The notes beneath the pieces were generated by a model. That model was not told the origin of the DNA. It saw only the letters and a list, made by a program, of their open reading frames with translations, and ran no database searches. From a virus: a stretch of 35,320 bases of DNA. The stretch is taken from IMG/VR virus record IMGVR_UViG_3300011115_000089, positions 1 to 35,320 of that record; one strand, 5' to 3'. Both the position numbers and the translations under genes were made by a program. Positions within the stretch are counted from its first letter, which is position 1; the number at the start of each line of letters is the position of its first letter. Positions 2,265 to 9,820 of the stretch are shown here, one piece after another.

Positions 2265-3497
2265 TTAGGAGGCGATACGGCAGGCCAACTCGGGATAGAG
2301 TGGAGCCCAGCCATAAAGAACGTCAAGACGGGTAGGAATCGAGTCGTTGTTGATGGTGTACTGACGCACAACACGCATAGACAGACCGATTTCCTTATCG
2401 CTTGCACGACCAGCAAAGTGAACGCCATCAGGCAGTTCCAAGTCAGCGACTGCAAGAGTAAACGCATTGCGGTGCATCATCATATTTTGCGGGGAAGCCA
2501 CGCCGGTGTTGTTAAACGCCGTAATGTTTTGCGAACCGCTAGAAGTGATGCTGACGTTTTGGAATTGACCAGCGGTAATGATAGCGGGGCTAACTTGTAC
2601 CGATGTTGCGCCAGTTCCGACAGAAGTCGTAGCCATCACAACAAAGTTACGCAGTTTGCCGTAAGACTGACGATTCTGTGGGTTGACTGCGAACACGCCA
2701 GGGATGGTGAACACGTCACCAGCATTGAGCGTAGAGGCAGACGATGCAGCCAAAGAAATTGTCGAGAATTGCGACCAACCAGAAGTCAGGAAGCCGGTGC
2801 CGGTGGTTACGTTGATTGCAATAGTGTTTGCGCTCCACGAACCAAAGGTTTGGCTAACAACGTTCTGATCCAGTTTCCAGTTGCATCCAGCCGAATCACG
2901 ACCCATCAAACCCTTGCGATACTGTTCGCCGATGGCTTCTTGGGGCACAAATAGACCCTTGAGGCTGTCAACGATAGTTGCAGAGGTAAACGGCTCAATG
3001 ATGACCGAACGGCGACCGTCACGGGGAGCGCCTTCGCTGTCCAAGTATGCGCCAGCGGTCAGATAAGTAATCAGACCAGTGGGAGGCGTACCGGCAGTTC
3101 CAACGATGTTCGCGGTGTTCAGATTAGCCATAACCATACCATCGCGGTCAATCTTATTGGCGATTGCAGCAACAGCGGGTTTCAGCACACGATCCGAGAA
3201 CATATCCAGCGACAGAGCCAAGTCCTGAGTAGTGAACTGGGTATCAACGTGGAACTGAGTGGACAAGGTAACAGGCACCGATGTTTCGTTGAAATCTTCA
3301 ACGTTCAAGGCGGGGCCAGTTGTACCGATGAAACGACCAGGTTTACGGACGTTCACGGTGTTACCGATTTTCGCACCAACAACGGCAAATTGGTCGTCAT
3401 AGTTGCGATCTACTTCAGAAGTGAAGGTAAGTTCGTTCTCCAAGACCATCAGCGCTTCGTTGGTGATCTTGGAAATAGTTAGCAAATTGTTTGCCAT
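2265..3497 (-). CDS. Major capsid protein, P22 coat family
   Basis: 410 residues, close to the P22 gp5 length (430). The N-terminal section (NLLTISKITNEALMVLENEL, then NYDDQFAVVGAKIGNTVNVR) and the following TQFHVDTQFTTQDLALSLD stretch are typical of the P22 coat family (HK97-fold shell subunit). A Gly/Thr/Ser-rich middle region (about residues 220-330) corresponds to the place where P22 coat carries its inserted domain. The C-terminus has RLDVLYGWAPLYPELACRI. It assembles the icosahedral head around the scaffold encoded immediately upstream. TTAAGGAAAAATC precedes the ATG. Family assignment is from sequence memory; confident. Confidence 0.93.
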   Translation of the reverse strand: MANNLLTISKITNEALMVLENELTFTSEVDRNYDDQFAVVGAKIGNTVNVRKPGRFIGTTGPALNVEDFNETSVPVTLSTQFHVDTQFTTQDLALSLDMFSDRVLKPAVAAIANKIDRDGMVMANLNTANIVGTAGTPPTGLITYLTAGAYLDSEGAPRDGRRSVIIEPFTSATIVDSLKGLFVPQEAIGEQYRKGLMGRDSAGCNWKLDQNVVSQTFGSWSANTIAINVTTGTGFLTSGWSQFSTISLAASSASTLNAGDVFTIPGVFAVNPQNRQSYGKLRNFVVMATTSVGTGATSVQVSPAIITAGQFQNVSITSSGSQNITAFNNTGVASPQNMMMHRNAFTLAVADLELPDGVHFAGRASDKEIGLSMRVVRQYTINNDSIPTRLDVLYGWAPLYPELACRIAS

Positions 3498-3519: not shown

Positions 3520-4425
3520 CTATCGAATTCGACCAGCCTTACGAGCCGCTTTCCACGCTTGGTAACTTCCGTGAAACTGACCGTCTGAGCCAATTTCTAC
3601 TTGGTTAGCGTTTCCAGCATTCCGAATCGGGCTGATCGGTGGTGGTGCTTTACTCTTACCGACAGGATTACTCTGCTTAGTCTCAGGTTGCTTCTCAAAC
3701 TTCGCTTCCAACTTTCCAATCTCGCGTAGCGCAGCAAATGGCGACATTGAGGCTATCTTCTTTGCAAGATCGTCCTCTTTGGCTAAGTGGTATAGGATTT
3801 GTGGGCCTACGTCACTTTCCAAAATGGCATCACGAATGGGGTCGCTTACCGCAACACCACTTGAGGCCACCATGTCATCAAAATCGGGAATATCGGCCTT
3901 CGCTGTTGCAACTTTCTGCGCCCAGGTAGAAATTACTTTCTGCCGCGCTTCGTCTGCCCTGCGCTCCACATCTTCACGATCTCGCCTAACCAATGCCTGC
4001 TCAGCCGACCAGTCCGCTAATGCCTCTGCATATTCAAAGGCGTCAGTAAACTGACTTGGCTGAGGCTTTTCGTCAACCGCTTTAGCCTGTTGGGGCTGTT
4101 GCTGCTGCTTAAAAGCCGCTAACTCAGCTTCCAGCTTTTGCCTTGCTTCACGTTCCTGCGCCGCTTCTTGGCGGGCCTGTTCGCGCTGCTTGGTTATCTC
4201 TGAAAACCGCTTTTCGAGTTTCGGATTTTGTTTCCGTTCCTCTGTCGGTTTCGCTTCCTTTTCTGCTCCTGATTCACTCCCATCATCGCTTTCTGTCGGC
4301 TCTGAAGGAGAATCCTCAACTTCAGCCTCGGCAGGCGCTTGATCGGCTAAACCCATTCGGTTTGCATAAAATTCCGCTGCATTCTCGCTGGTCAAAACTT
4401 GACCGGCTTCTTTTTCACTTGACAT
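3520..4425 (-). CDS. Scaffold protein, P22 gp8-like
   Basis: 301 residues, matching P22 scaffold (303). It is highly charged: an acidic region (residues about 30-65), a long Glu/Arg/Gln coiled-coil region (about 65-115, including KQQQQPQQ), an alpha-helical middle, and a basic C-terminal end GSYQAWKAARKAGRIR that fits the helical coat-binding tail of P22-like scaffolds. It lies directly upstream of coat. Its first residues, QVLTSENAAEFYANRMGL, resemble the N-terminus of the ADP-ribosyltransferase-like protein encoded next to it (positions 4493-4954), so this segment may bind a shared partner such as the portal or other scaffold molecules. Confidence 0.9.
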   Translation of the reverse strand: MSSEKEAGQVLTSENAAEFYANRMGLADQAPAEAEVEDSPSEPTESDDGSESGAEKEAKPTEERKQNPKLEKRFSEITKQREQARQEAAQEREARQKLEAELAAFKQQQQPQQAKAVDEKPQPSQFTDAFEYAEALADWSAEQALVRRDREDVERRADEARQKVISTWAQKVATAKADIPDFDDMVASSGVAVSDPIRDAILESDVGPQILYHLAKEDDLAKKIASMSPFAALREIGKLEAKFEKQPETKQSNPVGKSKAPPPISPIRNAGNANQVEIGSDGQFHGSYQAWKAARKAGRIR

Positions 4426-4437
4426 AGGTTTCCCTAA

Positions 4438-4490
4438 GATTTTTACCCAATTAAAACCTAATTGGTAAGGTTGTGTGGTTTATACCACAA
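4438..4490 (-). other. Two tandem hairpins between ART-like and scaffold genes
   Basis: On the minus strand the intergenic RNA would contain TGTGGT-ATAA-ACCACA (about 4474-4489) followed by TTACCAATT...AATTGGGTAA (about 4446-4471). No T-run follows the second stem on the minus strand, so these look more like mRNA-processing or stability elements, or weak attenuators, than a strong terminator. They separate the AT-rich accessory gene from the scaffold gene. Confidence 0.5.
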
Positions 4491-4492
4491 AT

Positions 4493-4954
4493 TTAAGATT
4501 TTGGATCATAATTTCTAACAACTTGATCGTGATTAAAAATTGCTGTTCCAAGGTCTTTAAAAGAATTAAATTCTATTCCGTGATAACCAGCTTTTTTTGC
4601 TTTTTCTAAAGCATCTTGAGATGCAGTTTTAAGATTTTCACCTGACTTCATTGTGTTAATTAATTTTCCTGTGCGTCTTTGCGTTAATTTTGCAAACTCT
4701 CTTGTTCCTTCTTTAAGAATTTTTGCATTAGGATGTAATCCTATTGTTTCAATTTTTCCATCAGAACCAGCATAAGATTTAGCAACTTCATGGTGGGGAG
4801 TAATCCATAATTCGCCCTCTCCGATGCCACCTTTCATTTTTTCAGTTGAGCCAGTTGTTCCCCTGTAATAAATTTTATGTTTTTCAGGTTTAAGGCCCAT
4901 TTTTTTAGCATCATACTCAGACTTGTTTTCTGATGTAACTATTTCGCGGGCCAT
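4493..4954 (-). CDS. ADP-ribosyltransferase-like protein with scaffold-like N-terminus
   Basis: 153 residues. Residues 28-32 (IYYRG) place the Arg expected at the start of an ART fold; residues 50-63 (WITPHHEVAKSYAG) match the second conserved strand and helix; GYHGIEF (123-129) and AIFNHDQVV (138-146) match the C-terminal end typical of ART domains in phage polyvalent and MuF-type proteins. Residues 5-21 (IVTSENKSEYDAKKMGL) resemble the scaffold N-terminus. Its ATG overlaps the portal stop (TAATG), giving coupled expression during head assembly. The gene is far more AT-rich than its neighbours: about 30% GC in bases 4501-4560, against about 58% in 5341-5400 of portal. It may modify a host protein after injection, or a virion component. 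A final catalytic Glu is not certain. Fold assignment moderate; substrate unknown. Confidence 0.65.
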   Translation of the reverse strand: MAREIVTSENKSEYDAKKMGLKPEKHKIYYRGTTGSTEKMKGGIGEGELWITPHHEVAKSYAGSDGKIETIGLHPNAKILKEGTREFAKLTQRRTGKLINTMKSGENLKTASQDALEKAKKAGYHGIEFNSFKDLGTAIFNHDQVVRNYDPKS

Positions 4955-7038
4955 TAGATTGCCCTTTCTGTAGTTTCGGAAGATGCTTCACGCAAAGCAC
5001 GGCGGTCAAGTTCAGCAAGCATTAGGGCCACTTCGGCCTTCATGCGCTCAATTTCCTTTTGGGTTTCGGTTTTAATCACAGTTTCATGGGCAGATGCTTC
5101 CATTTTCATTTCCATTTCCTTGTGACGTTCGGCGTTTGTCAATTCAAGTTCGTGGGCGCGGTTTGTCTCTTTAATCAAAACGCGTTTGGTTTCGGCATCC
5201 TGCTTGACCTGCTCAATGTCTTGGCGCTGCTTGATGACCATTTGCAATTGTTGTAATTGCTGCTGCATCTGCTGCATTTGGGCCTCATTTGCCTTGAGTT
5301 GCATCTGAACTTGGGGCGGTACGGGCGATTTATCGTCAATCTGCGACATGGGATTAGACGCTGCAAGCCGGTCGGCAATAACGTCTGCGCCAGGGAAATC
5401 CATGTTTCGGAACACCAAATCGCCTGCAACTTTAAACAATTCGGGGTTGCCGTTTACCAATGGCATCATGGCATCTACTGCCGCTTGGCGCTTGGAATTA
5501 AAGCCTGGGCCGGTGTCCATAACCACATCGTATTGGCCCACAGTCATGTCGTGCATGACCTTAAACACGCCTTCTGCGTCTTGACTGGCCTTATTGATTT
5601 CCACCAAATCAGGCTTCCCATCGTCACCAATGATTCGCATAACCCGCTGAGAATCGTAAATGTGCGGAATCAAATCAAGGATGATTTTGCCGGTTTGGGC
5701 AATTGACTTTGTAAGGTTGTCGTAAAAGTCAAAGTTGGTAAGGTCAACTTGTTGTTGCTGACCGTTCAGCGCCTTGCCTGAAATATTGCCTGGAAGTTGC
5801 TGAGATGGGTCGTAAATGCCCATCAGGGTAGCAATGTCGGTGTTTATCCCTGCCGCTGCTGCCATGACACCGGCAGGCGGTGGCTCGGGCTGGAGGCGTT
5901 GCGGAGGCGGCGCGGTATTTCCATCAATGTCGGTTTGCTTGTAGCGCAGCAAGGGGAATGACTTAACGTTAGCCGCTGCCCATTCGCTTTCATGGCCTTC
6001 GTCTTGACCTTCTGCCATGATCCACTTGGCCTTGGGAGCCAGCGCGACAGATTCCGTGATGGTTGTCTGCCAGAAGTTGTACATCCGCTGGGCATCCTTG
6101 GCGTGACGCACCATGCCAAACTTGTGGCGCTTGTCTCCAATGACAACGTGCCGCCCGTAAACAGGAACCACGGGGATATAAGTGCCAGGCCAATCGCGTT
6201 CCTCAATGACTTCGACTGCGGTAAGTTTCTTCCACTTGATTGTTCGCTTGAAGGATGCACGTTCACCAATGATTTGAATGCCTGCCGCCTCAAGACGGGC
6301 GCGGAAATCCTTACCTTCAGCAAATTTGGACGTTCCATCGCTTAGTTGGTACAGGGTTGCCGATTCCCGTTTAACGTAGAAATACTCGGCAATGCGTATA
6401 TCTTCCTTGGTAATCCATTCGGATTGACTGTCACCCGTGCCCCGTTGGGTAAAAGACGTTCCATCGTCATTGTTGGGGTAAAGTTTGCGGAACTTGGCCT
6501 TGCTCATCATGGTGGTGATAAGGCAGCGCTCTGCGTCCGAACCATCTACACGCTCGGAATTGGGGTCAAAGTAGACGGTAAAAGGATTAGGGATCGCGTC
6601 AATGTAGATTTCTTGATCGAAAGAATCTTCTTTGACGTAATCGGTTGTTACCCGCCAAAAGCCCCAACCCATCCGCACGGCATGGTCAAAACCTGTATCG
6701 TAGGCGTTGTCAGCGTTGGAATTGACCTCGATGTGGCGGCACATTCCTTCAATTACGTCTGCGGTTTTAACGTCCGCTTCGTTGTTTGTGGCGTGAACCT
6801 TGATGCGGGGGCGTTGCTGGCGCTGCTGATTGGTGACTTGGCGGCAGTATCCGTCCAATTTGTTAATCGTCAGGACAGGGCGCGATTCAAGGTTGCGGGA
6901 GTTTTGCAGTTCAACGGGCCATTGGTCACCATTGACAAACTTTAAATCCTCCAAACCTTCTTGGCGATTCATCGTGTCTGCATCGTTGCAGAGTTTGAGG
7001 AAGTCAATCGCTTCGTCAATAATTGGGTCAATATCCAT
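4954..7038 (-). CDS. Portal protein, P22 gp1-like
   Basis: 694 residues (P22 gp1 is 725). The N-terminus has FLKLCNDADTMNRQEGLEDL, then DGYCRQVTNQQRQQRPRIKV, both typical of the P22-type portal family. NPFTVYFDPNS and EDIRIAEYFYVKRE fall in the wing and clip regions. The C-terminal 130 residues form a Gln- and Glu-rich coiled coil (QMQQMQQQLQQLQ onward), corresponding to the P22 barrel. It forms the dodecameric vertex through which DNA enters and leaves, and binds terminase, scaffold and the gp4-like neck protein. Its start is directly downstream of the large terminase gene, one base overlapped with that gene's end. Confidence 0.93.
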   Translation of the reverse strand: MDIDPIIDEAIDFLKLCNDADTMNRQEGLEDLKFVNGDQWPVELQNSRNLESRPVLTINKLDGYCRQVTNQQRQQRPRIKVHATNNEADVKTADVIEGMCRHIEVNSNADNAYDTGFDHAVRMGWGFWRVTTDYVKEDSFDQEIYIDAIPNPFTVYFDPNSERVDGSDAERCLITTMMSKAKFRKLYPNNDDGTSFTQRGTGDSQSEWITKEDIRIAEYFYVKRESATLYQLSDGTSKFAEGKDFRARLEAAGIQIIGERASFKRTIKWKKLTAVEVIEERDWPGTYIPVVPVYGRHVVIGDKRHKFGMVRHAKDAQRMYNFWQTTITESVALAPKAKWIMAEGQDEGHESEWAAANVKSFPLLRYKQTDIDGNTAPPPQRLQPEPPPAGVMAAAAGINTDIATLMGIYDPSQQLPGNISGKALNGQQQQVDLTNFDFYDNLTKSIAQTGKIILDLIPHIYDSQRVMRIIGDDGKPDLVEINKASQDAEGVFKVMHDMTVGQYDVVMDTGPGFNSKRQAAVDAMMPLVNGNPELFKVAGDLVFRNMDFPGADVIADRLAASNPMSQIDDKSPVPPQVQMQLKANEAQMQQMQQQLQQLQMVIKQRQDIEQVKQDAETKRVLIKETNRAHELELTNAERHKEMEMKMEASAHETVIKTETQKEIERMKAEVALMLAELDRRALREASSETTERAI

Positions 7039-8674: not shown

Positions 8675-9820
8675 TTAGGCAATCTCGGCAGATTCTGTCA
8701 ATAAAACGGCTTTTTTGCCTGTGAAGTCTTCCCAACGCTTAACAATTGCATCACAATAACCAGCATCTTGTTCCATTAAATATGAACGCATATTGTTTTT
8801 TTCACAAGAAATAGCAATTGTTCCACTGCCCGCAAACAAATCTAACACCGCACCTTTTTCGGGTACTTTCAGATATTCAATTGAAAAATCCATAATTTCT
8901 ACAGGTTTTTGTGTTGGATGAATACTTCCTTTTAATTTATTGCGATTGATTGTCTTGCTTCGTAATGGCTTATCTTCGGTTGTCCATGCTAATTCACCAT
9001 CAGACATTGTTAAGCCATCTTGACCCTTACTCCAATATAGCCAACCACGTGTAGCGGGTAACAAATCAGAAAAATAATTGCCGCCCCAAATTACAGCAGG
9101 AACATTCATGGCAACAATCCAATTAAACATTCCTGCGTCTGGTCTTTCAGCATCCCAATGCTTTTTTTCGTGGTATTTGCGATTGTGTTTAGGATTGGGA
9201 TTTGTTGATTTTTTCTGACCATCAATACCAATTCCATAAGGCGGGTCAGTAACTATTGCATTTGGATATACGCCATCAAGCAATTTATCAATATCAGCAA
9301 CGCTATTGCTATCCCCGCACATAAGCCTGTGGTTGCCCAACTGGTAAATGTCGCCCAGCTTAGTCTTTGGTTTTTCAGGCACTTCCGGCACGGCATCCTC
9401 GTCCGTCAATCCTTCCACAACCTCCGGCTCAAGCAAGGCGGCTAACTCTTTTGGGTCAAAACCCAGCATTTCGAGCGCAAAACCGTCTGCCAAGAGTTCG
9501 TTTAACTCAATGGTTAGCATCTCATTGTCCCACCCAGCATTAAGCGCCAGGCGGTTGTCGGCAATGATGTAAGCCTTCTTTTGGGTTTCTGTCAGGTCTG
9601 CCAGTTCTATGGTTGGAACTTCGGTATATCCCAACTTGCGGGCGGCTAATAGCCTGCCGTGGCCTGCAATGATGCCGTTTGTCCCATCCACCAATATCGG
9701 GTTAGTCCAGCCAAATTCCTTAATGCTTGCCGCGATCTGAGCCACTTGTTCGTCTGAGTGGGTGCGGCTGTTGTTTACATAAGGGATTAGTTCTGTGACC
9801 TTTTTTTGGGTAATTTTCAC
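8675..9820 (-). CDS. ParB-like / DNA methyltransferase fusion
   Basis: 381 residues with a GTG start overlapping the stop of the upstream small gene (GTGA). Residues 1-115 form a ParB/Srx-type domain (IPYVNNSRTHSDEQVAQIAA, then GIIAGHGRLLAARKLG). After a linker (about 130-155), residues 156-375 are a beta-class DNA methyltransferase: DPPYG (about residue 192) and, later, DLFAGSGT (AdoMet site). DPPY points to N6-adenine or N4-cytosine methylation. It probably protects phage DNA from restriction. The base composition changes inside the gene: about 55% GC in 9421-9480 (ParB part) but about 25% in 8881-8940 (methyltransferase part), so the two halves probably have different histories. Confidence 0.92.
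   Translation of the reverse strand: MKITQKKVTELIPYVNNSRTHSDEQVAQIAASIKEFGWTNPILVDGTNGIIAGHGRLLAARKLGYTEVPTIELADLTETQKKAYIIADNRLALNAGWDNEMLTIELNELLADGFALEMLGFDPKELAALLEPEVVEGLTDEDAVPEVPEKPKTKLGDIYQLGNHRLMCGDSNSVADIDKLLDGVYPNAIVTDPPYGIGIDGQKKSTNPNPKHNRKYHEKKHWDAERPDAGMFNWIVAMNVPAVIWGGNYFSDLLPATRGWLYWSKGQDGLTMSDGELAWTTEDKPLRSKTINRNKLKGSIHPTQKPVEIMDFSIEYLKVPEKGAVLDLFAGSGTIAISCEKNNMRSYLMEQDAGYCDAIVKRWEDFTGKKAVLLTESAEIA

Follow-up and report, generated by a model that had tools for sequence, protein, structure and literature searches.

The internal proteins of T-even phages have an N-terminal packaging leader in common and show no homology otherwise (PMC12373910, PMC3012670), and in P1 DarB, an N-terminal stretch of 30 residues is enough to direct a foreign protein to the capsid (PMC9024508). 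For polyvalent proteins, MuF proteins, and portal fusions, the fusion of effector domains to a head protein has been proposed as the route into the virion (Iyer et al. 2017, PMC5512222), and the cargo of engineered P22 nanocages enters a P22-type shell via an attached piece of scaffold (reviewed in PMC9962691). Here, we report on a gene in the IMG/VR virus record IMGVR_UViG_3300011115_000089, the 35,320 bases of which (positions 1 to 35,320; GC content 0.48) are referred to as the window. The gene (4493..4954, minus strand) occupies a slot between the portal and scaffold genes and encodes a small protein composed of a scaffold-like N-terminal tag and a cargo domain. The arrangement looks like the leader kind known from T-even phages and P1, with a leader putatively drawn from the phage's own scaffold. 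We consider it probable that the tag is a scaffold-mimicking, capsid-targeting peptide with interchangeable effectors that are loaded and delivered.

Like the T-even proteins Ip1-3, the slot proteins are small and mostly basic, share a short common N-terminal leader but are otherwise unrelated, and are optional and variable between related phages. Unlike Ip1-3, they are encoded between portal and scaffold in P22-like phages, and their leader is similar to the scaffold of the same phage. Furthermore, packaging and injection have been shown for the T4 internal proteins and are predicted for the slot proteins. An N-terminal packaging signal is also a feature of P1 DarB; unlike the slot genes, however, DarB represents one large Dar protein, and P1 is without an identified separate scaffold, its signal not being a scaffold copy. 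Engineered P22 cargo systems mostly rely on the part of gp8 that binds the coat, at its C-terminus, whereas the natural tag matches the scaffold N-terminus. A description of scaffold-like tags of this type was not found in searches of the open-access literature.

The slot protein comprises 153 amino acids with an isoelectric point (pI) of 9.45, and the GC content of its gene is 0.34 (window: 0.48). An initial annotation of the window had placed the gene start on the portal stop codon and had aligned the N-terminus of the protein to that of the scaffold, and both statements hold. The ATG overlaps the portal stop as TAATG, on the minus strand, which had not been given before. Residues 5-21 (IVTSENKSEYDAKKMGL; 4892..4942, minus strand) align without gaps to scaffold residues 10-26 (VLTSENAAEFYANRMGL; 4348..4398, minus strand), with 9 identities in 17 positions. 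The reported divergence of the underlying DNA is equally evident, as all eight shared non-Met residues (8/8) use different codons in tag and scaffold (ACA/ACC, TCA/AGC, GAA/GAG, AAC/AAT, GAG/GAA, GCT/GCA, GGC/GGT, and CTT/TTA). The commonest tag reads VTSENKAE[FYH]D...[LM], with which the scaffold motif shares [VL]TSENx[AS][ED][FY]....[LM]; the latter is kept in all listed relatives.

A stretch this short with nine identities might be thought to arise by chance. When the six frames of the window were scanned with a profile built from scaffold N-termini alone, however, the scaffold motif took the top place (57.7) and the slot tag the second (24.1), while everything else scored ≤0.8. With a smoothed 14-column profile, the tag scored 24.2, which was reached by none of 21,500 shuffled tag N-termini and by none of 4,354 N-termini of other open reading frames (ORFs), a control set from which scaffold hits had been removed. 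The best-scoring "control" ORFs proved to be further tagged genes. Together with the recurrence of the tag on unrelated proteins in the same slot, these controls refute a chance origin, which we regard as having next to no probability; the likeness between tag and scaffold is non-random and far beyond chance.

To what extent the tag recurs is seen from 48 tagged proteins, which fall into 19 clusters without detectable mutual similarity behind the tag; at least 19 cargo families exist. The slot proteins thus show what characterizes T4-type internal proteins, i.e., a short conserved leader on unrelated proteins (19 cargo clusters, one tag). Cargo types include GNAT acetyltransferases (L108 and L308, above cut-off), an ASCH domain (L149, above cut-off), GP88 (L112, 5.5e-23), and ParB-like proteins (L287, and L119 via phrog_2579, 2.8e-30). 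Below cut-off are a PFIN-like type (L095 cluster, 2.3e-4) and the ART-PolyVal-like type of the window and L120, and a hint of a Tpt1/KptA-like protein was obtained for L001/L029 (E = 0.024). Many cargo types are unknowns, and AlphaFold2 modelling of the six-member PFIN-like cargo reached a predicted local distance difference test score (pLDDT) of 46, too low for a fold assignment. Untagged relatives are found in Vibrio and mycobacterial phages for the L119 domain and in Nodularia phages for the PFIN-like domain. The tagged proteins have a median length of 130 amino acids, and 91% have a pI >8.5; being small and basic, they fit the expectation for proteins packed with DNA.

The ART-PolyVal-like and ParB-like cargo types also recur among polyvalent proteins, and the GP88 type is joined to a polyvalent InPase domain in Tunturi_5. 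In the latter, Tunturiibacter phage Tunturi_5 (L383, 3368-4705), the fusion of GP88 to an inorganic pyrophosphatase domain is annotated as a minor head protein. Unlike polyvalent proteins, MuF proteins, and portal fusions, a slot protein consists of a single small domain on a tag of about 20 residues, with no MuF or portal domain. While polyvalent proteins hold 2 to 15 domains per polypeptide, the 153 amino acids of the window protein gave one weak domain match, and a MuF domain was matched neither in this protein nor in any scanned slot protein. The word "scaffold" does not occur in the paper on polyvalent proteins (PMC5512222).

The slot was compared across relatives by four scaffold-based scans that made no use of the tag, yielding 226 distinct junctions in which portal and scaffold were both readable; these are counts of metagenomic contigs, from which identical ones were removed and among which some near-duplicates remain. 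The majority of the junctions are empty, mostly with a short gap of 50-99 base pairs, and 30 of the 226 hold an extra gene. L274, where a broken portal frame gives the impression of an insertion, is not counted. The initial annotation had made its proposal dependent on the N-terminal similarity being present in related phages, and it withstood this check, the tag being found at the start of 27 of these 30 slot genes. In L309 and L310, the slot contains a short protein (MKELNHADYISKEL...) that is like the tagged KHPKYAKLKAALG family and carries no recognizable tag. Within the window's group, the insertion is clean, as the sequence of the empty site (TA[AG]ATTTGTGGTATAAACCAC...) resumes directly after the cargo stop codon. 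Among the scaffolds nearest to that of the window by DNA (92-97%), the slot is mostly empty, and L006/L016 (~94%) have another cargo. The 877-base-pair portal-scaffold slot of L107, L117, and L179 holds a tandem of two tagged genes, which start with different tag variants (MPDVVTNDNWQDYVANKL and MPTVTSENKAEHDREFM). L285 and L286 have an empty portal-scaffold slot; their tagged gene, with cargo of the NDFYSKYKEK family, lies between large terminase and portal (500-827), at a second insertion site.

This pattern of optional, exchanged genes would also suit late accessory proteins that bind the partner of the scaffold as assembly modulators or as blockers of satellites or competing phages, and are not cargo; the tag by itself predicts competition with the scaffold. 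We consider this quite improbable, given that at least 19 unrelated domains, several of them with matches to enzyme families (GNAT, ASCH, and ParB-like), are hard to fit to such a role. The docking signal suggested in the initial annotation is, by contrast, strongly favored by sequence comparison, in which cargoes of 19 or more unrelated families occupy one slot and begin with the scaffold-like N-terminus. It gains further support from conservation at the protein rather than the DNA level and from the tagged gene in another slot.

Regarding specificity, a degenerate DNA pattern for the tag was run on 2.9 million viral contigs and 257 Gb of prokaryotic genomes. The viral contigs gave 43 matches, and 43/43 lie at the N-terminus of a gene that follows the portal. 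In nearly all of them, the scaffold comes next; the rest are ended by contig ends or, in L092, show another short ORF. Only eight matches were obtained from the prokaryotic genomes, six of which are readable in the frame of the tag, all internal to unrelated proteins. The slot belongs to a large and widespread phage group from freshwater that is uncultured.

When tags from different cargo families are compared, their 17 codons show proportions of synonymous and non-synonymous differences (pS and pN) of 0.71 and 0.34, respectively. As synonymous sites are near saturation and the peptide is kept, it is the peptide and not the DNA that is conserved. Cargo genes are themselves under purifying selection (pN/pS 0.05-0.54), and they are exchanged between phage backbones independently of these: L001 and L029 share their cargo at 96% versus 61% for the scaffold and 70% for the portal, L024 and L041 at 92% versus 74% for the scaffold, and the window and L120 at 73% versus 54% for the scaffold and 65% for the portal. 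For phages with different cargo, likeness of the tag correlates weakly with likeness of the scaffold motif (rho 0.13, reached by 6/1000 permutations). L006 and L016 share a cargo at 95% and start with MAREIV and MPTV, respectively; the same cargo behind different starts suggests recombination inside the tag. This recombination of tags against cargo, the precise insertion, and the overlap of the start codon with the portal stop are what one would expect if the tag were a DNA segment for recombination or translation initiation, i.e., for cassette swap or coupling to the portal, with the peptide as a by-product. Near-saturated synonymous sites under a preserved peptide, the different codons by which tag and scaffold encode their shared residues, and the tag at another site in L285/L286 speak against it. 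We therefore rate a DNA-level segment, which the codon data already largely refute, as very improbable.

The initial annotation had further described the cargo of the window as an ADP-ribosyltransferase (ART). Its motifs IYYRG, WITPHHEVAKSYAG, GYHGIEF, and AIFNHDQVV were recovered in the translation of the slot gene, and a match to PF18760 (ART-PolyVal) covers residues 27-145 (4520..4876, minus strand; E = 0.0028), a near-complete domain that corresponds to profile positions 7-130 of 140. The score of 18.9 bits, however, stays under the curated cut-off of 31.2. The 73%-identical relative L120 comes closer (E = 9.6e-5, 23.6 bits) and is likewise below that cut-off. AlphaFold2, run on two sequences (the window protein and one close relative), gave a pLDDT of 36, again too low to judge the fold; PDB sequence searches with the window protein and with a two-sequence profile returned nothing relevant. 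No PF18760 member was detected in about 200 genomes searched, and phage and plasmid records, searched by tblastn with the window protein and with L120, yielded no relative. Based on the two sub-threshold profile hits and the conserved motifs, we lean towards a putative ART of the polyvalent-protein type. An ART has no special standing among the many cargoes, so that the main result is the peptide together with its slot.

A loading signal is the simplest account of why many unrelated proteins encoded in the head operon carry one scaffold-like peptide. From it we infer a pathway that comprises a binding partner, encapsidation, retention, injection, and enzymatic activity. The first ~20 residues would mimic the motif at the N-terminus of the scaffold protein of the same phage and, during head assembly, bind either the scaffold or the partner that its N-terminus binds, whereby the small and usually basic cargo would be brought into the procapsid. 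As DNA enters and the scaffold exits, the cargo would remain with the DNA and accompany it into the next cell, where its early targets would be host proteins, nucleic acids, or defences. The slot at the portal-scaffold junction is the place where unrelated cargo domains replace one another. In P22, the N-loop of the scaffold could not be resolved in the procapsid; without this loop, scaffold is retained in the head and particles contain less of the ejection protein gp16, and co-assembly of ejection proteins with scaffold seems to occur (PMC12005531). These results would make the scaffold N-terminus a reasonable cargo address. Scaffold mimicry may on balance represent a general loading code in P22-like phages, in which a short copy is enough for procapsid loading and delivery and a pool of at least 19 effector families passes through one slot.

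Several observations weigh against loading and delivery by scaffold mimicry. Three of the 30 slot genes (L290, L309, and L321) are without a tag, and the slot gene of L280 is very divergent. At some positions (tag residues K6 and D10), the tag departs consistently from the scaffold motif, so that identical binding may not hold. The ART assignment, being below threshold and paired with a low-confidence structure model, is plausible but weak. Finally, cargo that is bound to the scaffold could exit together with it. This last point leads to an alternative in which the tag does bring cargo to assembling heads or inside the procapsid, yet the next host receives nothing, the cargo either departing together with the scaffold or working solely in the cell that produced it. 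The P22-type scaffold exits the head during packaging (PMC12005531), a scaffold-like peptide could go along, and no retention signal was identified in the tagged proteins. Nevertheless, we regard this outcome as unlikely, since the cargo types include enzyme-like domains of the polyvalent repertoire, which are predicted to be injected (PMC5512222), and since a basic pI suits packaging with DNA.

The slot gene takes a late position in a head operon on the minus strand, its start being coupled to the portal stop, and the order is terminase, P22-like portal, slot gene, scaffold, and P22-like coat. The window phage has a P22-like head module with P22-type portal and coat and a separate scaffold gene: the portal gene (4954..7038, minus strand; PF16510, 1.6e-176), the stop codon of which overlaps the slot gene start, the scaffold gene (3520..4425, minus strand; phrog_8865, head scaffolding protein, 6e-41), and the major coat gene (2265..3497, minus strand; PF11651, 1.4e-35; phrog_283). 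Upstream of the terminase genes, the window encodes a ParB-N domain fused to an N6/N4 DNA methylase (8675-9820, minus strand).

Downstream of the slot gene, a structured scaffold leader (4425..4488, minus strand) was recognized in a first alignment and by covariation in 38 representative leaders. On the minus strand, it consists of a 5' hairpin (4475-4488), an H-type pseudoknot in which AACCT/AGGTT crosses CCAATT/AATTGG (4447-4472), and a hairpin that holds the ribosome-binding site (4425-4436). For the pseudoknot and the latter hairpin, 88.5% of cells are paired with a covariation score of 0.494, compared to 0.165 in shuffles and ≤0.077 with the partners slid. The leader matched no family in Rfam, and all examined insertions in the window's group lie upstream of it. 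The P22 scaffold is autoregulated, and an obvious guess is that the leader RNA may control scaffold translation.

If loading and delivery through scaffold mimicry holds true, one short peptide would mark injected effectors from sequence alone in a widespread phage group, much as internal proteins could be recognized by the T4 leader, and many unknown small proteins would become testable as effectors of early infection or as anti-defence proteins. A role for the scaffold N-terminus, which in P22 has been linked to gp16 incorporation and scaffold release, would likewise be indicated. The tag would then be a natural N-terminal loading tag for P22-type particles, and the phage group would represent the natural counterpart of the engineered scaffold-fused P22 nanocages.
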